Made by a program: the position numbers and the translations under genes | NCBI GenBank assembly: GCA_017431255.1 | Contig: JAFRLI010000334.1 | Location: 1 to 33,906, forward strand | DNA from: Victivallales bacterium | GTDB lineage: Bacteria > Verrucomicrobiota > Lentisphaeria > Oligosphaerales > Oligosphaeraceae | Reading direction: 5' to 3' | Length of the DNA stretch: 33,906 nt | In this document: positions 9,842 to 33,906 of the stretch, in pieces | Position numbering within the stretch: position 1 is the first letter of the stretch | Layout: each line of letters begins with the position of its first letter | The notes under the pieces: generated by a model | Databases searched by the model: none | Told to the model about the DNA's origin: nothing | The model's input: the letters and a program-made list of their open reading frames with translations, nothing else

Positions 9842-9993
9842 GAGGGAATTGCAAAACTCTCATCCCAACCGCCTTCACCGCGCGGCGCAATGGCTTCATC
9901 GTCCAAACTCGGTATGGTCATCACACCGAGTCTTCGCTCTTCGCCCTCGCTTGCAACGCTTTGGCGGTTGGGCGGTAGATTTGCAATTACCTC
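9842..9993 (+). repeat. 152-bp palindromic element, copy E1
   Basis: Full copy. The left end is GAGGGAATTGCAAA and the right end TTTGCAATTACCTC, with a second inverted pair inside (CCCAACCGCC near 9865 and GGCGGTTGGG near 9963). A central hairpin has arms reading CTCGGT and ACCGAG (near 9908-9930). It is free of stop codons when read in codons starting from its first GAG. There is no convincing target duplication (ATAG left, TAAT right). It lies upstream of both the minus-strand rhomboid gene and the plus-strand hicA. Confidence 0.9.
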
Positions 9994-10136: not shown

Positions 10137-10322
10137 ATGAAGAGAACCGACCTACTCAGAATCATCACACAAAATGGTGCAGTCTTCCTTCGGAACGGCG
10201 GCAACCATGACATATACTTGAAGAACAACATCACCCTAGTTATCCCTAGGCACAGTGAAATCCCGGAACTCCTTGCGAGGTCCATCATCAAGAAATCTCA
10301 ACAACCAGGAGATGCCAAATGA
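10137..10322 (+). CDS. hicA: HicA-type mRNA interferase toxin
   Basis: A 61-residue HicA toxin with a double-stranded-RNA-binding-like fold that cleaves mRNA and is neutralised by HicB. The active-site His lies in RNGGNHDIY (His24), and the C-terminal IPRHSEIPELLARSIIK is the usual HicA end. The length is typical. The ATGA at 10319-10322 overlaps the hicB start, so toxin and antitoxin are translationally coupled with the toxin first, the normal hicAB order. The pair is less GC-rich than neighbouring genes and is flanked by repeat elements E1 and E2, consistent with a mobile module. Confidence 0.93.
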   Translation: MKRTDLLRIITQNGAVFLRNGGNHDIYLKNNITLVIPRHSEIPELLARSIIKKSQQPGDAK

Positions 10323-10747
10323 AGTTCACTTACTGCGCTCTGATACACCAGACCGATAACGAACTTATCGTCATCTTCCCAGACTTCAACTCCTGCATGA
10401 CATTCGGGAAAGACATCCAAGACGCAACTTCTATGGCAGAGGACGCACTATCGCTCGTCATTCAAACTATGCTTGAAAAGAAAATACCGCTTCCCAAGCC
10501 AACACTGGACTTTCGCGCCTTGCTCCAAATGGCCGACAAGGAACTTCCCCCCGTCGCATTCATCATGCCTGTCACCGTATTCGTCGAAGCCGCCCATAAG
10601 GTAGTTCACCTTAATATTACATGCCCAGCCGAAAAAATCGACATTATCGATGAGTTCGCTCACAAATGCGGCAAGAAACGCTCAACCTTCCTTGTCGATT
10701 CAACCATGGAAAAAATAGCAAACCTCAAAGCAACTGCATATCATTAG
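10319..10747 (+). CDS. hicB: HicB-type antitoxin with C-terminal DNA-binding domain
   Basis: A 142-residue antitoxin. The N-terminal half has the partial RNase-H-like HicB fold (YCALIHQTDNELIVIFPDF, then EDALSLVIQTMLEKKIPLP). The C-terminal part, HLNITCPAEKIDIIDEFAHK followed by CGKKRSTFLVDSTMEKI, looks like a ribbon-helix-helix segment that would bind the operator upstream of hicA. The start overlaps the hicA stop. The stop codon TAG at 10745-10747 is formed at the junction with repeat element E2: TA comes from the gene side and the G is the first base of the element. The original C-terminus may therefore have been different. Confidence 0.92.
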   Translation: MKFTYCALIHQTDNELIVIFPDFNSCMTFGKDIQDATSMAEDALSLVIQTMLEKKIPLPKPTLDFRALLQMADKELPPVAFIMPVTVFVEAAHKVVHLNITCPAEKIDIIDEFAHKCGKKRSTFLVDSTMEKIANLKATAYH

Positions 10748-10870
10748 AGGTGATTGCAAAACTCTCATCCCAACCGCCTTCACGGCATGCAAAAACCGGC
10801 GGACGATGCTTGCGCGGCCTCAATGCACTGCCGACCCCTGCCGAACCGCCAAGAAGGTTTTGCATGGCCG
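10747..10870 (+). repeat. palindromic element, degenerate copy E2
   Basis: The first 40 bases (10747-10786) match the left end of the 152-bp family almost exactly (GAGGTGATTGCAAAAC, then the CAACCGCC region). After that the sequence differs: CATGCAAAAACC at 10786-10797 is mirrored by GGTTTTGCATG at 10856-10866. Imperfect direct repeats of a GCGCGG...CA(C/G)TG pattern run to about 10900. It is either a recombined copy or a composite of two elements. I see nothing else in this stretch up to the CTAG array at 10901. Confidence 0.7.
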
Positions 10871-12410: not shown

Positions 12411-13378
12411 GCTTTCAGCTCCTTTTGGGTACAAAATGGAACGACAAAATCCAGGACCTGTTTTCGCCAGGCAGCCGAGGAGTAGTTGTGATTGGCGCCT
12501 GGAATCTCCTCAAAGCGGATAGGAAGGGAATGTTCTTTCACATAGGACCCGAAGTACTGAAGCGCTGCAGGCGCATCGGGGTCGCCCGTGCCGTAAATCA
12601 TTAAAGCAGGCAAATCCTTGCGCAGTCCCGTAAGGTATTTTTTCGGCGGTTCCTTGCCTGCGTCAAGACGGCTTTCGTGCGCGGAGGCCTTGGCAGTCTT
12701 CCCTGTCGGCTTGGCTGGCGCATCGCCTTCCTCGTGACGACGATTCTCCCCGCGTTTCAGGAAGGGTCGCAACAGGACTCCGAACGCGCGTCCAATGCTG
12801 GCCTCGCCACGAAAAACGCGTTTCCACGTGTCCGGGCTGCAAGCCTTGTGGAGATAGACGCCGAGGAAATGCCAGACGCGGTGGACGTCGCGCCCGAAAC
12901 TGTCCCCGTCCGAGAAAGGATAGACGGAGAGGAGTGCAAGCGCCTCGGTGGCGGGAAGGTTCTTGAGAGAGCCGATGGCAATGTTGCCGCCGGAGCACAT
13001 TCCGAAGAGCGTTGTCTTGGGCAAGCCAGTTTCCTGACGCAAGGCGGTTTCGGCTGCGCGAAGGTCTTCAGACATCGTGGCGAGCGTTGCGTGGAGACCG
13101 TCGCCCTCGCTTTCGCCGCGTCCGCGGAAGTCGAACCGCAGGCAGGCGCAGCTGGCAAAAGCAAGTGCACGAGCGATGGCGGTAAGGAGTCCGGCGGGAC
13201 CGCAGCGATGTCCGCTCCAGCCGTGCGTGAAGACCACGGCGCGTTGCGGAACGCCCGTTGCAGGCAGGGAAAGGATGCCGCAGACAGATTCCCCACACGA
13301 TTCAAAGACGAGCGGGCGCTCCTTCACACCTGGCGCAACCATTGCCTCCGATGCCAGATTCCAAGTGCCTTCGCTCAT
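12407..13378 (-). CDS. alpha/beta hydrolase
   Basis: 323 residues from ATG 13378, whose ATG overlaps the stop of the upstream gene as ATGA; the frame continues to 13447 but without support. The fold is that of an alpha/beta hydrolase: oxyanion-hole region FTHGWSGHR near residue 50, RFDFRGRGES near 81, nucleophile elbow GMCSGG (Ser129), acid in IYGTGDPDAP, and catalytic His in PGANHNYSS near the C-terminus. A charged insert (KRGENRRHEEGDAPAK) interrupts the cap region. There is no signal peptide, so it is cytosolic. The pattern resembles the first of the two hydrolases that accompany exosortase systems, but no exosortase or PEP-CTERM protein is in this window, so that link is tentative. Confidence 0.87.
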   Translation of the reverse strand: MSEGTWNLASEAMVAPGVKERPLVFESCGESVCGILSLPATGVPQRAVVFTHGWSGHRCGPAGLLTAIARALAFASCACLRFDFRGRGESEGDGLHATLATMSEDLRAAETALRQETGLPKTTLFGMCSGGNIAIGSLKNLPATEALALLSVYPFSDGDSFGRDVHRVWHFLGVYLHKACSPDTWKRVFRGEASIGRAFGVLLRPFLKRGENRRHEEGDAPAKPTGKTAKASAHESRLDAGKEPPKKYLTGLRKDLPALMIYGTGDPDAPAALQYFGSYVKEHSLPIRFEEIPGANHNYSSAAWRKQVLDFVVPFCTQKELKA

Positions 13379-14730
13379 TTGCCCACCTCCTTCTTTTTCG
13401 GCGGGAAGTGCTTCGCCAAGAAGGCGTCCTGGCGGCGACGCGCCCACTGGGCGGCCTCAGATTCCCAGTAGAGAATCGTGTTGTGGTGACCATTTGGAAT
13501 GAGGACATACTCATATGGCTTGCCCAGCCGCTTCAGTTCCGCGACCAAATCCTCGTGGCTGAGGTGGAAGACGCTGCCATCGTAGGTTTCTCCCATGAAG
13601 AGGAGCATCGGGCACTGAAGCAAATCCGCATTCTGGACGATGCTCCGTTTTTTCAGACCGTTCAATTGGTTCGCAACAGGTTGGTTGCGGAAGTCCGCCC
13701 AGGAAAGCCAATTGTTCGCAGCGCGACGCATACGATCATAGCAATAGCGTTGCGGATTGACGAGCCAGGCATCGTAACTCACGACTGCCTTCGCCTTTGC
13801 GCCAGAGCGTGCCGCCACGAGCAACCCCACGCCTGCCCCAAAACTATGTCCCACCATCGCGAACTCGTTCGGCTTCACATACGGCAGTTTCCACGCCGCG
13901 GAGAGCATCGCCAGGCAGTCATCCACCTCCCCTTCCAGATTTTCTATCTCTCCCTCGCAACGCAACACCTTCCCATTTACCATAAGCGGACGCTGGAACA
14001 AATCCTCCCCGCGCATCGCGGGCCCTGCAATGACATACCCTGTCTCCGCCAGGCCCGCCAGCCAGTCCAGAAACTCCACAGGAAGCCCAAACGCTGCACC
14101 ATGGCAATACAGCAACAAGGGATAGTTGTCTCCAGCCTTTGGCTCCTTCGGACGAATGACCACCCCGTATTGCCGCAACGTATCCACCGTCCATTCCACA
14201 ACGTCCACCATCACGCCTTCGTGTCCGCGCAGGCCATACGATGCCAGCGTTGTGAAGGTCGCATCAGGAACAGGAGGCCACTTCACAGGCGGCAGCGGCT
14301 TCAGATTCTCCAACTTCCCCGCGCCCGCCTTCCAGAAAGCCAACGCTTCCAGGCGGTTTCCCTTGACCTCGGCGAGCCGTCCGTCAAACCAGGCTTGCAG
14401 GGCATCGTGGACATCCAGTCCCGCCAGGAACGGCTCTTTGAGCGCTTCCACAAGTTGCTCCTCGGCAATCGTCATGGGGCGCTGCTCGATGTTTTCCAGC
14501 CCAGGACGCACTGTATCCCCGCAGAACGCAACCAACCCCAGAAACAAAATAGGTAATATGGAGGTAATTGCAAAACAACCGTCCAACCGCCAAAACGCCG
14601 CAAGCGAGGACGAAGAGCGAAGACTCGGTGCGGTGACCACACCAAGTTTGAGCGAGGAAGCCATCGCGCTGCGCCGTGAAGGCGGTTGGGATGAGAGTTT
14701 TGCAATTCCCTCTATCGATTTGAAGTTCAT
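13375..14730 (-). CDS. esterase/dienelactone hydrolase-like protein with in-frame repeat insertion in the signal peptide
   Basis: 451 residues. The start at 14730 is strong: GGAGG lies 7 bases upstream and the ATG overlaps the previous stop (ATGA). The catalytic part has LLLYCHGAAFGLP, nucleophile elbow GHSFGAG (Ser296), a possible acid in FMGETYDGS and a His in PNGHHNT, suggesting an esterase or peptidase-like alpha/beta hydrolase acting on an ester substrate. Residues ~7-57 are encoded by the 152-bp element E3. Removing the element and a 4-bp duplication would give MNFKSILPILFLGLVAF, a normal signal sequence, so the ancestral protein was probably exported. As it stands the hydrophobic stretch begins near residue 58. 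Whether export survives is unknown. The remaining protein and its operon overlaps look intact, so this is not an obvious pseudogene. Confidence 0.85.
   Translation of the reverse strand: MNFKSIEGIAKLSSQPPSRRSAMASSLKLGVVTAPSLRSSSSLAAFWRLDGCFAITSILPILFLGLVAFCGDTVRPGLENIEQRPMTIAEEQLVEALKEPFLAGLDVHDALQAWFDGRLAEVKGNRLEALAFWKAGAGKLENLKPLPPVKWPPVPDATFTTLASYGLRGHEGVMVDVVEWTVDTLRQYGVVIRPKEPKAGDNYPLLLYCHGAAFGLPVEFLDWLAGLAETGYVIAGPAMRGEDLFQRPLMVNGKVLRCEGEIENLEGEVDDCLAMLSAAWKLPYVKPNEFAMVGHSFGAGVGLLVAARSGAKAKAVVSYDAWLVNPQRYCYDRMRRAANNWLSWADFRNQPVANQLNGLKKRSIVQNADLLQCPMLLFMGETYDGSVFHLSHEDLVAELKRLGKPYEYVLIPNGHHNTILYWESEAAQWARRRQDAFLAKHFPPKKKEVGK
14561..14712 (-). repeat. 152-bp palindromic element, copy E3, inside a coding region
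   Basis: Full copy in the reverse orientation relative to E1. The ends are GAGGTAATTGCAAAAC at 14561 and GTTTTGCAATTCCCTC ending at 14712. Flanking tetramers TATG and TATC match at 3 of 4 bases, a possible decayed target duplication. With a 4-bp duplication the insertion adds 156 bases, exactly 52 codons, so the host gene stays in frame. It has no stop codon in the host frame. The central hairpin arms keep pairing through G-T wobble changes relative to E1. Confidence 0.92.
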
Positions 14731-19328: not shown

Positions 19329-19424
19329 GAGGGAATTGCAAAACTCTCATCCCAACCGTCGCGGTGCGATGGCTTCCTCGCTTGCGGCGTTTTGGCGGTT
19401 GGACGGTAATATTGCAATTACCAC
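19329..19424 (+). repeat. palindromic element, internally shortened copy E4
   Basis: Ends GAGGGAATTGCAAAAC and ATTGCAATTACCAC, with the CCCAACCG and CGGTTGGACGG inner pair retained. It is 96 bp, having lost the central hairpin region (56 bp) of the 152-bp family. It begins 15 bases upstream of the exporter start and ends one base before the importer ATPase stop codon (19426-19428), so it makes up most of the 111-base intercistronic gap. Confidence 0.88.
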
Positions 19425-19425
19425 T

Positions 19426-20169
19426 TTAGAGAACCTTTGCGAGGAAGTCATGCAACCGGGGATGCTGCGGATTCGCAAAGAATTCCTTTGGGGTGTTTTG
19501 TTCCAAAATCTTGCCGCCATCCATAAACAGGACGCGGTTGGCGACCTCACGGGCAAAGCCCATTTCGTGCGTGACGACAATCATCGTCATTCCGGCGTCG
19601 GCAAGGTCTTTCATCAGGCTGAGGACCTCCCCGACCATTTCGGGGTCCAGGGCGGAGGTCGGTTCGTCAAACAGCATCACTTCGGGATTCATCGCAAGGG
19701 CGCGCACGATGGCGACACGCTGTTTCTGACCGCCTGAAAGCATGCTGGGATAGGACGCGGCACGGTCGGCCAGACCGATACGCGTCAGCAGGGACATGGC
19801 CTTGTCCACGGCGTCCTTGCGGGACATCAGTTTGAGTTGAACAGGTGCCAGCGTAATGTTCTCCAAGATGGTCTTGTGCGGAAACAGGTTGAAGTGCTGG
19901 AACACCATTCCCATCTTCTGACGCAACAGGTCCACTTTGCAACCTTTGCGCGTGATCTCCACGCCATTCACGAAGATTCGCCCGCTGGTGGGTGTCTCCA
20001 ACAGGTTGAGACACCGCAGGAAGGTGCTTTTGCCAGAGCCGGAAGGACCTATGACCACGACCTTCTCGCCTTTTTGGATTGTCTCCGTAATCCCCGAAAG
20101 CACCTCGTGCTCCCCGAAACTCTTGTGGAGTTCCTGCACCTCGATCATTGCTTGAGTCGTCTTCTCCAT
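19426..20169 (-). CDS. glnQ: polar amino-acid ABC transporter ATPase (GlnQ/HisP type)
   Basis: 247 residues that power amino-acid uptake. Walker [11 protein letters not shown]-loop [11 protein letters not shown], signature LSGGQKQR, Walker [13 protein letters not shown] and H-loop VVTHEMGFA are all intact, and [21 protein letters not shown] is the classic polar-amino-acid ATPase end. GAGGAGG precedes ATG 20169 by 6-7 bases. It is the third gene of the binding protein-permease-ATPase order, 13 bases after the permease stop. The specific amino acid cannot be read from it; the symbol denotes the family only. Confidence 0.93.
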
Positions 20170-20934: not shown

Positions 20935-21033
20935 GGGCACGACTCGGAAGGTACTCTTGGGAAGTTCCCTAAGGAATCGTGCTCCCAAGAGTACCCATGA
21001 AACCATTCTCCGAAGAGTACCCTAGTCGTGCGC
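20935..21033. repeat. intercistronic palindrome between binding protein and permease
   Basis: The outer arms GGGCACGACT (20935-20944) and AGTCGTGCGC (21024-21033) pair, and GGTACTCTTGGGA (20950-20962) pairs with either TCCCAAGAGTACC (20983-20995) or TCCGAAGAGTACC (21009-21021), giving two competing folds. A further TACTCTT lies at 20926. It begins at the binding-protein stop codon. Such structures commonly protect the binding-protein mRNA 3' end or attenuate downstream transcription. Confidence 0.8.
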
Positions 21034-21854
21034 TATTTGTCCTGAAGTTTCCGTGCAATCTCGCTGTACTTCAGCAGGTTCACTTCCAGTTCGCCAGATT
21101 CTTTCATCTCGGTGATGGTGGCATTCAAGAGCTGCAGCAATTCCGCATTGCCTTTCTTGACAATCATCCCGAAGTCCTCATGCTCGGGTTCGGCCGTCTT
21201 GAAGAGCAACTGCACCGCCTTGGTGCCTTCGTTCTGCTTGCTCAACTCAATCGCAACCAACTTGTCGACGACAACCGCGTCAAGTTTCTTGTTCTTGAGT
21301 TCGAGAACGGCGTCCGAAGCGGTCTTGAACTGCTTGAGTTCTGCCTTGGTGTCCTTGAGTTCACCCTTGTTGATGGCGTCTTCCACCAGCAGCATACCCG
21401 TGTTGCCGACCTGACCTCCGATGGCCTTCCCGGCAAGGTCTTCAAGATACTTGTAGTTATCCTCTTCGCGGAGGATAAGATACTGATAAGAACGGTCGAA
21501 CGGAACGGTGAAGTCCACCTGCTGCTTGCGCTCGTCCGTGATGGTGAACCCCGAGGCTCCCAGATCCGCCTTGCCGCTGGCAATCGCCATAATGATGGAA
21601 TCAAACTGCGCAGGTTTCACTTCCAATTTCACACCCAATTTCGACGCAACTTTCTCCAAAATGGCGATTTCACAGCCAATGGCTTTCCCTTCTTCCCCAA
21701 TGAACTCATAAGGCGGAAAATCAGGACTGGTATACACAACCAGATTCCCATGCTTCTTGATGGACGCCACGTCTCCCGCCTTCCGGCCGCAACTCGTCAA
21801 CATCACTGCCGACAACACAGCACAAACACAACCAGACAACAATTTCTTCAACAT
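21033..21854 (-). CDS. amino-acid ABC transporter substrate-binding lipoprotein
   Basis: 273 residues, with a lipoprotein signal peptide (MLKKLLSGCVCAVLSAVMLTSC, lipidated Cys near 22) and a family 3 solute-binding fold: VVYTSPDFPPYEFIGEEGKAIG, then FDSIIMAIASGKADLGASGFTIT, DERKQQVDFTVPF and LAGKAIGGQVGNTG. It captures a polar amino acid for the permease and ATPase encoded next. AAGGAG lies 7 bases before the ATG. It is the first gene of the importer operon; the upstream 88 bases to element E5 show no clear promoter, though TAAAAT (on the minus strand near 21925) could be a weak -10 box. Confidence 0.93.
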   Translation of the reverse strand: MLKKLLSGCVCAVLSAVMLTSCGRKAGDVASIKKHGNLVVYTSPDFPPYEFIGEEGKAIGCEIAILEKVASKLGVKLEVKPAQFDSIIMAIASGKADLGASGFTITDERKQQVDFTVPFDRSYQYLILREEDNYKYLEDLAGKAIGGQVGNTGMLLVEDAINKGELKDTKAELKQFKTASDAVLELKNKKLDAVVVDKLVAIELSKQNEGTKAVQLLFKTAEPEHEDFGMIVKKGNAELLQLLNATITEMKESGELEVNLLKYSEIARKLQDK

Positions 21855-21942
21855 CTTTTCACTCCTTAACTGATTCGAGGGAAACCCTCATTTTTGTCTC
21901 ACGACACCGGGCGGCATCGCGTATTTTACAATGAATACCTAA

Positions 21943-22094
21943 GAGGCAATTGCAAAACTCTCATCCCAACCGCCTTCACGGCGCGGCGCGATGGCTTCCT
22001 CGCTCAACCTCAGCGTGGTCACCACACTTCGCGTTCGCTCTTCGCCCTCGCTGGCGGCGTTTTGCCGGTTGGCCGGTAGTTTTGCAATTGCCTC
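21943..22094 (+). repeat. 152-bp palindromic element, copy E5, with target duplication
   Basis: Full copy with near-perfect inverted ends: GAGGCAATTGCAAAAC at the left and GTTTTGCAATTGCCTC at the right are exact complements. It is flanked by CTAA on both sides (21939-21942 and 22095-22098), a perfect 4-bp target-site duplication, so this is probably a young insertion. The frame starting at its first base is stop-free. It sits between the importer operon and the 3' end of corA. The remaining bases to 22173 show no gene. Confidence 0.93.
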
Positions 22095-22173
22095 CTAATA
22101 TAGAGCAAAGTTTCCCCTTTTGCAATCCTTCAAGACATTTTTTTCTTGTGAATCTGGGAGATGGCAGGGGGAG

Positions 22174-30035: not shown

Positions 30036-31715
30036 ATGGATCCTCCCACTATGAATCCTGACTTCGTAACAATCTCCTTGCCCCAACAATGGTTCCTTCT
30101 GGCGGATTCCTCCGTGACTCCCGAACGCGCCTGCGAACTCTCCTCAAAATCCATCTCGGATGCCGCCTCCGGCGCCATGCCCATTTCCCTCAATGAGGAA
30201 GGCTATGTAAACCTCGTCGAAATAACACATTTGAGCGATTCCGAATGGTCCCTCGACAAGCGCGGAAAGAAAATCCTCCAAGGGAAGCACGCCGTCCTTC
30301 TCGCCGAGGTGAACGCACCCACCGACGGCAAGGTCCTCGCCACAGGCGGCGCCGACTTCTTCTGGGCAATCTACTGCAATGGCGTCCCTTGCTTCGACCT
30401 TCTCGAGCACGGAAATGGCGGCACTCCCGTTACCGCAACGGACAAGGTTTTCTCCTTCCCCGTCCACGCCGGCAAGAACACCCTTGCGTTCTTCGTCAAA
30501 TGCGGCATGTGTGGCTGGGCTGCCGCCATCGCCTTCCCGGAACTCCTCCCGCAAAACCTGCGTCGTTTCTCTCGCAGAAGAGAGTTCCTCAACGCCTTCC
30601 CGCCCGTTCCCGAACTTCGATACGGTCCCTGGCTCACGCACGCCCGCAACGGCGAAGTCGCCGTCCGTTTCACGACACCGTCGCCGATTGCGGTCGCGGT
30701 CGAATACGCGCCCGTCGGAACGGAAGATTGGGAACGCCGCTACGAAATCTGGAACGGATACTACCGCTGGGACACCGAATACCATGCGGTCATCCTGGAC
30801 AAACTTCTCCCCGCTACTGACTACCAGTTCCGCATCCTCCTCTTCCCTGAAGACGAATCCAAGGACGGACACCTCCCAGAACCACTCCAGAAGGCACACG
30901 TCATCCCAGACCTCTACACCTTCCGCTCCGCCCCCGCTCCCGACGCTGGATTCCGCTTCTTCGTCATGAGCGACACGCATCTCCCCAACGCCTCCCGAAA
31001 GGCCATGCTCCAGCAGTATGACCACTCCTACCATCTCGCCTCCGCCGACTTTTTCGCACATCTCGGCGATTCCTCCTCCTCCCTCGAATACTTCGACGAC
31101 GAACTTCTCGGCGGTTTCACCGACTTCTTCAACAAGGACAACCGCCTACAGCCCATCTGTCTCGTCCACGGAAACCATGAATACTCCGGCCGCGAAGGAC
31201 ACCTCTGGAACCTCTGCTTCAGCGATCCCAAGACTGGACTGAGTTACTGCGCGTTCCGCTACGGCATCGCATTCTTCCTCGTCTTCGACTACTGGACTGG
31301 ACGGGAAATCGACACCCCGCCCTCCAACCGCAAGCAGCACTTCATCTCCCAGGAAGACTGGGCACGCGCCGTCATCCAATCCGAAGAATGCAAAACCGCC
31401 ACCTACCGCATCGCGCTAAACCATTGCCCGCCGCAGAACCCCTCCCGGGAACAAACCTGCGTCATCTGCGCAAACTTCTTCCAAACCCTCTTCGACACCA
31501 TCCCATTCCACCTCGTCCTCGGCGGACACCTCCACAAATACCTCCATCAAAACCTCCATGGCGTCGACATCCTTACCCTCGACGGCGGGGAACGCGCCAA
31601 AGAAGTCAACATCACTCAGGTCGACGTCACCCCGGAAGCCATCCACATCCGCTCTGGCAAGGAAGATGGTACCATCTTCGATTCCTTCGACATTCTCCCC
31701 TCCGACAAGGTCTAG
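30036..31715 (+). CDS. calcineurin-like metallophosphoesterase with N-terminal beta domains
   Basis: 559 residues (or 554 from ATG 30051; neither has a clear ribosome-binding site). The N-terminal part has a jelly-roll-like segment (GGADFFWAIYCNGVPCFDLL) and a fibronectin-III/purple-acid-phosphatase-like segment (WLTHARNGEVAVRFTTPSP). The catalytic part shows the metal ligands in order: SDTH (313-315), HLGDSS, VHGNHE (379-382), ALNHCPPQN and GGHLHKY (498-500). It hydrolyses phosphomonoesters or diesters; the substrate is unknown. No signal peptide is evident. Third gene after esterase and GH127, 45 bases on. A close paralogue lies inverted at 32512-33906. Confidence 0.9.
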   Translation: MDPPTMNPDFVTISLPQQWFLLADSSVTPERACELSSKSISDAASGAMPISLNEEGYVNLVEITHLSDSEWSLDKRGKKILQGKHAVLLAEVNAPTDGKVLATGGADFFWAIYCNGVPCFDLLEHGNGGTPVTATDKVFSFPVHAGKNTLAFFVKCGMCGWAAAIAFPELLPQNLRRFSRRREFLNAFPPVPELRYGPWLTHARNGEVAVRFTTPSPIAVAVEYAPVGTEDWERRYEIWNGYYRWDTEYHAVILDKLLPATDYQFRILLFPEDESKDGHLPEPLQKAHVIPDLYTFRSAPAPDAGFRFFVMSDTHLPNASRKAMLQQYDHSYHLASADFFAHLGDSSSSLEYFDDELLGGFTDFFNKDNRLQPICLVHGNHEYSGREGHLWNLCFSDPKTGLSYCAFRYGIAFFLVFDYWTGREIDTPPSNRKQHFISQEDWARAVIQSEECKTATYRIALNHCPPQNPSREQTCVICANFFQTLFDTIPFHLVLGGHLHKYLHQNLHGVDILTLDGGERAKEVNITQVDVTPEAIHIRSGKEDGTIFDSFDILPSDKV

Positions 31716-32511: not shown

Positions 32512-33906
32512 CTAACGAGGTTTTACGTCAAACTTTTCGAAAACGATGCCATCAAATCTTCCACAACTGACATGCATCACTTCCGGCGTGAGTTCGACCT
32601 GGGTGAGAGAGAGGTGATGTGCGCGTTCCCCACCACCATGGGTGACGACATTGACACCGTTGATAACCTGGTGGTTGTATCTGTGGGTATGGCCGCAAAG
32701 AACGAGGTGGAACGGAACGGTGTCAAAAAGTTTTTTGAAGAACTTTGCGCAAAGGAGACAGGTTTCATAAGTAGACGGTTCTTGCGCGGGGAAATGGTTC
32801 AAAATAATACGATAGGTGGCGGTTTTGCATTCTTCGGATTGAAGGACAGCCAAAGCCCACTCTTCCTGCGAACGAAAATGCTGCTGCCGGTTGGAAGGCG
32901 GGGTGTCGGTGTCCCGTTCGGTCCAGTAGTCGAGAACAACGAAGAACGCCATGCCGTATCGGAAGGCGTAGTAACTCAGACCTGTCTTGGGGTCGCTGAA
33001 GCAAAGATTCCAGAGATAGGCTTCGCGCCCGGCAAACTCGTGATTCCCGTGGGCGAAGCAGATGGGCTGCAGGCGGTTGTTCTTGTTGAAGTAATTGGCA
33101 AAGCCTTCCAGGAGTTCATTGTCGAAGAAGTCATAGGTGGAAGCGGCGTCGCCGATATGTGCAAAAAAGTCGGCCTTGTCGAAGTTGTAGGATTTGTCAA
33201 ACGTCTGGAGCATTGCCAATTTGGATGGACATGGCAAATGGGTATCGCTCATGGAGTAGAAACGGAAGCCTGCGTCGGGCGCGGGGGCGGAACGGAACGT
33301 GTAGAGCGTTGGGAGGACGTGCCCTTTCTTGAGCGGCAAGGGCAGTTTGCCTCCATCGGTTTCGTCTTCGGGGAAGAGGAGGATGCGGAACTGGTATTCC
33401 GTGGCAGGCAGAAGACCATCCAGCACGACTGCGTGGTATTCCGTGTCACGACGGTAGTGCCCGTTCCAAAGTTCATAGTTGCGTGTCCATTGTTCCGTAC
33501 CGACAGGTGCGTATTCGACCGCGACCGCCAGCGGCGATTGCGTCATGAAGCGCACGGCCACCTCGCCATTTCGTGCGTGCGTGAGCCAGGGACCATGACG
33601 CAGTTCAAGAACGTGCGGAAAGGCGTTGAGGATTTGCTCGCGTCGTGAAAGACGATTCCGGTTTTGCGGGATAGGTTCGGGGAAATCAATGGCGGCAGTC
33701 CAGCCAAACCTACCGCTTTTGACAAAGAAGGCGATGGTGTTTTTGCCTGCGTGGACAGGGATGACGAATGGCGTGTCCTTGGCGGTAATGGGAGTACCTC
33801 CGTTGCCGTTGTCGAACACATCCATGCAGAGATTGCCGTTGCAGAAGACCTTCCAGAAAAAGTCGGCACCGGCCGTAGCGAGAACCTGTCCGTCAGCAGG
33901 GGAATC
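32512..33906 (-). CDS. calcineurin-like metallophosphoesterase, second copy, 5' end outside window
   Basis: The frame is open to the right edge; 464 residues are visible and the N-terminus is missing. The first visible residues (PADGQVLATAGADFFWKVFC) align with residues ~90-115 of the copy at 30036-31715, so about 90 residues are cut off. Metal-ligand motifs are all kept: MSDTHLP, HIGDAAS, HGNHEF, ILNHFPA and CGHTHRY. By eye about two thirds of aligned residues are identical, with exact runs such as NLCFSDPKTGLSY and SEECKTATYRI. It is therefore a duplicate with the same likely activity. The ATG at 33825 is internal. Confidence 0.9.
   Translation of the reverse strand, partial: DSPADGQVLATAGADFFWKVFCNGNLCMDVFDNGNGGTPITAKDTPFVIPVHAGKNTIAFFVKSGRFGWTAAIDFPEPIPQNRNRLSRREQILNAFPHVLELRHGPWLTHARNGEVAVRFMTQSPLAVAVEYAPVGTEQWTRNYELWNGHYRRDTEYHAVVLDGLLPATEYQFRILLFPEDETDGGKLPLPLKKGHVLPTLYTFRSAPAPDAGFRFYSMSDTHLPCPSKLAMLQTFDKSYNFDKADFFAHIGDAASTYDFFDNELLEGFANYFNKNNRLQPICFAHGNHEFAGREAYLWNLCFSDPKTGLSYYAFRYGMAFFVVLDYWTERDTDTPPSNRQQHFRSQEEWALAVLQSEECKTATYRIILNHFPAQEPSTYETCLLCAKFFKKLFDTVPFHLVLCGHTHRYNHQVINGVNVVTHGGGERAHHLSLTQVELTPEVMHVSCGRFDGIVFEKFDVKPR

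Follow-up and report, generated by a model that had tools for sequence, protein, structure and literature searches.

E5, a 152-bp element in the window analyzed here (a stretch of 33,906 nucleotides from a Victivallales contig), is very probably a non-autonomous transposon (MITE) that was moved by a transposase encoded elsewhere and left a 4-bp target duplication as its footprint. The element is of an ordinary kind; what is unusual is the spread of its ends across phyla and its orphan transposase. Its 152 bp leave no room for a transposase gene, and its terminal inverted repeat (TIR) is complementary at 17 of 17 bases (Table 1). The sequence-only reading, which had placed a perfect CTAA duplication and 16 complementary terminal bases at 21939-22098, was correct as to the position and the CTAA on both sides and one base short as to the repeat. 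For a single element, matching 4-bp flanks arise by chance in 1 case in 256.

Table 1. Coordinates of E5, its parts and related features in the window.
Feature	Position	Strand	Remarks
E5	21943..22094	+	152-bp MITE, no own gene assigned; 9 differences from family consensus
Left target duplication CTAA	21939..21942	.	sequence read directly
E5 left TIR GAGGCAATTGCAAAACT	21943..21959	+	perfect reverse complement of 22078-22094
E5 right TIR AGTTTTGCAATTGCCTC	22078..22094	-	sequence read directly
Right target duplication CTAA	22095..22098	.	sequence read directly
Promoter-like site TTGCAA, 17, TATATT, directed through E5 to the amino-acid ABC operon	22097..22125	-	consensus match only
E1	9842..9993	+	full-length; flanks ATAG/TAAT, no duplication left
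E2	10747..10786 (end approximate)	+	left end only, right end lost
E3	14561..14712	-	full-length; flanks GATA/CATA in own orientation, 3/4 alike
E4	19329..19424	+	short-class with shared internal deletion; flanks ATGA/TTTA, 2/4 alike
Second family (elsewhere with the same ends), decayed copy, interior GTCCACAGAACACACAGAATACACAGAA	5270..5437	+	no right end; intact copy L086:1156-1346

Target duplications and natural empty sites

Within the source genome (3.54 Mb in 352 contigs), the core 23-mer TTGCAAAACTCTCATCCCAACCG occurs 124 times with up to 2 mismatches (0 for the reversed control), giving the many dispersed copies that characterize a MITE, and BLAST returned at least 41 matches (40 of 326 first-look candidates scored). 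Around the matches listed, 102 unique copies were extracted (core with up to 3 substitutions), and 84 were usable, having both ends and flanks; 17 without a recognizable right end and 1 with a short left flank were left out. Identical 4-mers flank 36 of these 84 copies, compared with a mean of 1.3 and a maximum of 9 when left and right flanks are re-paired (5000 trials), and at least three of the four flank bases are alike in 56 copies (re-paired mean 9.8, maximum 21). Assumed duplication lengths of 3 and 5-9 bp give only 0-2 full matches, and the agreement per position at 4 bp (62, 63, 61 and 59 of 84) stands against a background of about 25 at those other lengths. A perfect duplication is absent from 48 of the 84 copies. 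The duplicated 4-mers vary from copy to copy, with CTAA found once among the 36 perfect cases, so that the objection that CTAA belongs to the element itself fails.

At the 36 perfect sites, a base preference covers the four duplicated bases and four on each side and is absent beyond them, describing a loose 12-bp palindrome, WRTC-TNNA-GAYW (strands pooled; the unpooled counts trend alike). We interpret this symmetric preference as that expected of a symmetric transposase complex. These duplications bear on a comparison with REP/REPIN palindromes, which are moved by a RAYT (HUH) transposase and are not known to leave a target duplication: high copy number and palindromic hairpin repeats are common to both, and a REP/REPIN-type origin is nonetheless very unlikely, being refuted in the main by the exact 4-bp duplications and further opposed by the 17-bp TIR and the 152-bp size. 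The GTAG/CGTC tags that are named in the title of PMC3733652 are also absent from the ends of the E5 family.

Two natural empty sites, one of them in the source genome, confirm insertion. On contig C206 of that genome (locus L086), a 152-bp copy is interrupted at its right junction by a 191-bp element that belongs to a different family sharing these ends and lies between TCAT and TCAT; the interrupted copy is flanked by ATGT/ATGA, and in silico excision of the intruder together with one TCAT restores ATGT/ATGT. At locus L187, in a genome of another genus of the same family (G015), a 154-bp element flanked by CATA/CATA lies within an 81-bp relative that is itself flanked by TAGT/TAGT. The gene flanking E5 has best long DNA matches of 68% identity among 39 relatives. 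The earlier proposal of a transposase-type insertion is thus borne out by the family-wide duplication and the empty sites, while its specification as cut-and-paste goes too far, as the duplication does not tell cut-and-paste apart from copy-and-paste.

In the mechanism that we propose, a transposase encoded elsewhere would recognize the ends GAG[G/C]NAATT[G/T]CAAAACT and mobilize the element in trans, probably by DDE-type chemistry. A 4-bp staggered cut would be made at the loose 12-bp palindrome and the element joined there, and repair of the gaps would then produce the 4-bp duplication.

The suggestion that the copies differ in age is upheld by the decay of the duplications with divergence. 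In the 152-bp class (33 copies), the duplications gain mismatches as distance from the consensus grows (Spearman 0.51, p=0.002), and perfect duplications fall across bins of rising divergence from 10/14 to 3/9 and 1/10; among all 84 copies, mean TIR mismatches are 1.6 with a perfect and 2.5 with an imperfect duplication (Mann-Whitney p=0.003), both p-values being only rough because related copies are not independent. The copies in the window follow in step, with 9, 15 and 18 positions of distance from the consensus and 4, 3 and 0 matching duplication bases for E5, E3 and E1, respectively; a three-of-four match at E3 and none clear at E1 and E4 had been read from the sequence before, in agreement with the present counts. 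The description of E5 as recent does not hold in the same way: at 9/152 it ranks mid-field among the 33 copies of full length, and 8/152 positions separate it from its nearest sibling, so that E5 appears younger than E1 and E3 without being evidently recent, although near-identical copies may be missing, since they tend to break assemblies such as this one.

Size classes and fold

The family consensus is 152 bp long; of the 84 copies, 33 are exactly 152 bp long and 8 are 104 bp long, the others being scattered over 70-155 bp. Of the 22 aligned copies of up to 112 bp, 16 have in common a 48-bp internal deletion with identical breakpoints (our reading of the alignment). Copies with this deletion occupy different sites, many with duplications of their own. 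By length class, the duplication is perfect in 8 of the 17 copies measuring 95-115 bp, and the short form most likely spreads as an element in its own right.

A similar pair of classes is found in the Correia/NEMIS elements of Neisseria, described as 153-157 and 104-108 bp long in PMC2649163 and PMC2229807. The likeness extends to the want of genes and of an own transposase, to more than 100 copies, to the foldback structure, and to a long and a short class that differ by about 50 internal bp (here 152 and 104 bp). An origin from Correia/NEMIS itself has, in our view, a negligible probability: those elements target TA and have a TIR of 24-26 bp, whereas the E5 family makes a 4-bp duplication, has a 17-bp TIR and ends in GAGGNAATTGCAAAACT without a terminal TA (ends compared by description), and the differing duplication length by itself sets the two families apart. 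The host also differs, being Lentisphaerota, as does the occurrence of wholly different interiors between lineages with the same ends. The closeness of the size classes to those of Correia elements suggests that the two converged on a size and fold that work. RUP of Streptococcus pneumoniae, a MITE whose mobilization in trans is attributed to IS630-Spn1, an insertion sequence with like ends (PMC2229807), has a TA target and a proposed partner, in contrast to the 4-bp duplication and the lack of a partner found here. YPAL and ERIC, enterobacterial repeats of 127-168 bp with stem-loop transcripts and target duplications according to the same paper, differ in their termini, and the YPAL duplications are there given as 3 to 26 bp. 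No published account of this high-copy Lentisphaerota MITE family was found at the level of search results.

The consensus folds into a near full-length bulged hairpin, which favors reading the family as a structured RNA or regulatory hairpin that selection conserves, with flanks that match by chance. In the 33 full-length copies, 93.6% of paired cells are kept, and double changes number 20 compared with 8.0 in shuffles when counted as cells and 5 compared with 4.0 when counted as pairs (167 of 500 shuffles as high). They fall mainly in two apical pairs, which co-vary in 8-9 of the 33 copies, a further point in favor of that reading, and separate two sublineages. From the same 33 copies, RNAalifold predicted other, local stems in preference to the full-length hairpin, which it did not recover. 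Taken together, covariation and RNAalifold make the fold look like a property of the founders rather than the product of selection demonstrated for each copy. Selection as a structured RNA is also opposed by mismatches throughout the stems, by copies at unrelated sites with duplications and by the same ends on unrelated interiors; the window has no Rfam match at the gathering threshold, and we consider this explanation highly improbable.

Spread of the ends and search for the transposase

A search of 39 relatives with E5 gave matches in 6, belonging to three genera. With up to 2 mismatches, the pattern GAGGNAATTGCAAAACTCTCATC was counted 133 times in the source genome (0 for the reversed-pattern control). 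One other genus has 25, 18 and 6 occurrences in three of its genomes, a third genus has 3 and 2 in two genomes, and G002 has 0. Among nine further genomes of the same family, the 17-mer GAGNNAATTNCAAAACT is absent from seven, one of them a single contig, and is found 1 and 2 times in the other two. Further afield, a paired-TIR pattern over genome contigs, restricted to total lengths of 122-152 and therefore missing 154-bp elements, picked out 9 stretches, spread over six named genomes: Lentisphaerae GWF2_50_93, Victivallales RGIG6748, Syntrophaceae CG2_30_58_14, Chlamydiae nzgw621, Lentisphaera SulCav and Victivallis vadensis MiH-14oct19-33. Two such elements lie on one contig (G005:C66). Copies of the exact 17-mer GAGGNAATTNCAAAACT number 19 in the GWF2, 7 in the Syntrophaceae, 45 in the Chlamydiae, 67 in the Lentisphaera SulCav and 41 in the V. 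vadensis genome, against 0 for the reversed controls, with the proviso that these genomes are metagenome-assembled and misbinning could inflate the count of phyla. No match to the MITE was found in plasmids or phages, and the 18-mer on five viral contigs seems a chance match, with no nearby second end that has matching flanks. Palindromes of 33-35 bp with little beyond the two TIRs were also seen in G005 (L238 at about 2775-2807, L240 at 313-345 and L239 at 354-388).

For comparison, 29 elements of 73-206 bp were picked by hand, 16 of which have identical 4-bp flanks. By our own count their interiors form about 10 groups without mutual similarity at E 1e-3. With 20 bases trimmed from each end, 27 of the 29 interiors fold at least 2 SD better than dinucleotide-shuffled sequences, where members of an interior group are not independent; the exceptions are one V. 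vadensis element (0.0) and a G019 relative (-0.9), E5 standing at -2.2. In genomes of Lentisphaerota, Chlamydiae and Syntrophaceae, the same TIR delimits interiors that are unrelated in sequence and mostly hairpins. The recurrence of 152 and 154 bp in two genera with unrelated interiors raised fixed total length as a constraint, which was dropped given the 73-206 bp span. One set of ends on unrelated hairpin interiors in different phyla makes two questions testable, namely which transposase serves these ends and whether hairpin interiors are chosen. It is conceivable, although we regard it as doubtful, that one multi-phylum system, possibly with a stand-alone transposase outside the TIRs in the way that stand-alone RAYT genes serve REPs, moves TIR-bounded DNA and favors or needs hairpins, with unrelated hairpins captured repeatedly.

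Insertion sequence families that make 4-bp duplications include IS701, the IS5 groups and IS1380, which resemble the E5 family in duplication length. No transposase with these ends was obtained from four Pfam families and 20 ORFs beside unpaired TIRs; every contig searched exceeded 3 kb, and an insertion sequence with several copies, if collapsed into a short contig, could have escaped notice. PF13546 had 0 hits in 7 genomes, and the other three families had hits without these ends: none of the seven loci scanned for PF01609 (7 hits in 4 genomes) is enclosed by the TIR, the 2 weak PF13701 hits are not flanked by it, and the 2 weak PF13586 hits lie at contig ends of the source genome in loci without such a TIR. 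These last (L194 and L195, on contigs C232 and C264) consist of the end of a transposase gene followed by GGATAGGTTC and probably represent another, collapsed insertion sequence. In Lentisphaera, an IS256 fragment lies near TIRs at L208, with no convincing matching pair enclosing it; the same locus holds a MITE with GGTT/GGTT flanks (L208:3608-3753) beside a short ORF and the IS256-type fragment. The Chlamydiae genome G042 has an identical 118 bp at three contig ends (L245 1-118, L259 193-310 and L262 194-313), with the TIR at its opening and no closing TIR, and this is possibly the end of an autonomous element.

E5 and its neighbors in the window

The start of an SBP_bac_3 solute-binding protein gene (21033-21854, minus strand) lies 88 bp downstream of E5, and ABC permease and ATPase genes follow on the same strand to form an amino-acid ABC operon, with a CorA-like gene upstream of E5. 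This operon is bracketed by E4 and E5, and MITEs adjoin several genes in this genome. One promoter-like match is present at E5 compared with 0.2 expected, and, judged from its sequence, the site at 22125-22097 would carry transcription through E5 into the operon leader. As the interiors are mostly hairpins, E5, if transcribed, is predicted to add a long stem-loop to that leader. A family-wide TIR promoter was considered and rejected, since TTGCAA combined with a TATAAT-like hexamer (spacing 16-18 bp) shows no enrichment across 167 flanks; the closer matches are explained by AT-richness near the target.

The other copies also adjoin or enter reading frames. The first G of E2 is the last base of the TAG stop codon of a HicB-like ORF (10319-10747), and the ABC ATPase ORF 19426-20169(-) has E4 one base past its stop codon. 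E3 spans approximately codons 7-57 of ORF 13375-14730(-), ahead of a Peptidase_S9 match (residues 227-442), so that this ORF has either a MITE-derived N-terminus or a wrongly assigned start. Elsewhere in the window, 30324-31681 and 32537-33894 make up a large inverted duplication with 74% complementarity over 1096 and 251 nt; it covers two long ORFs on opposite strands.
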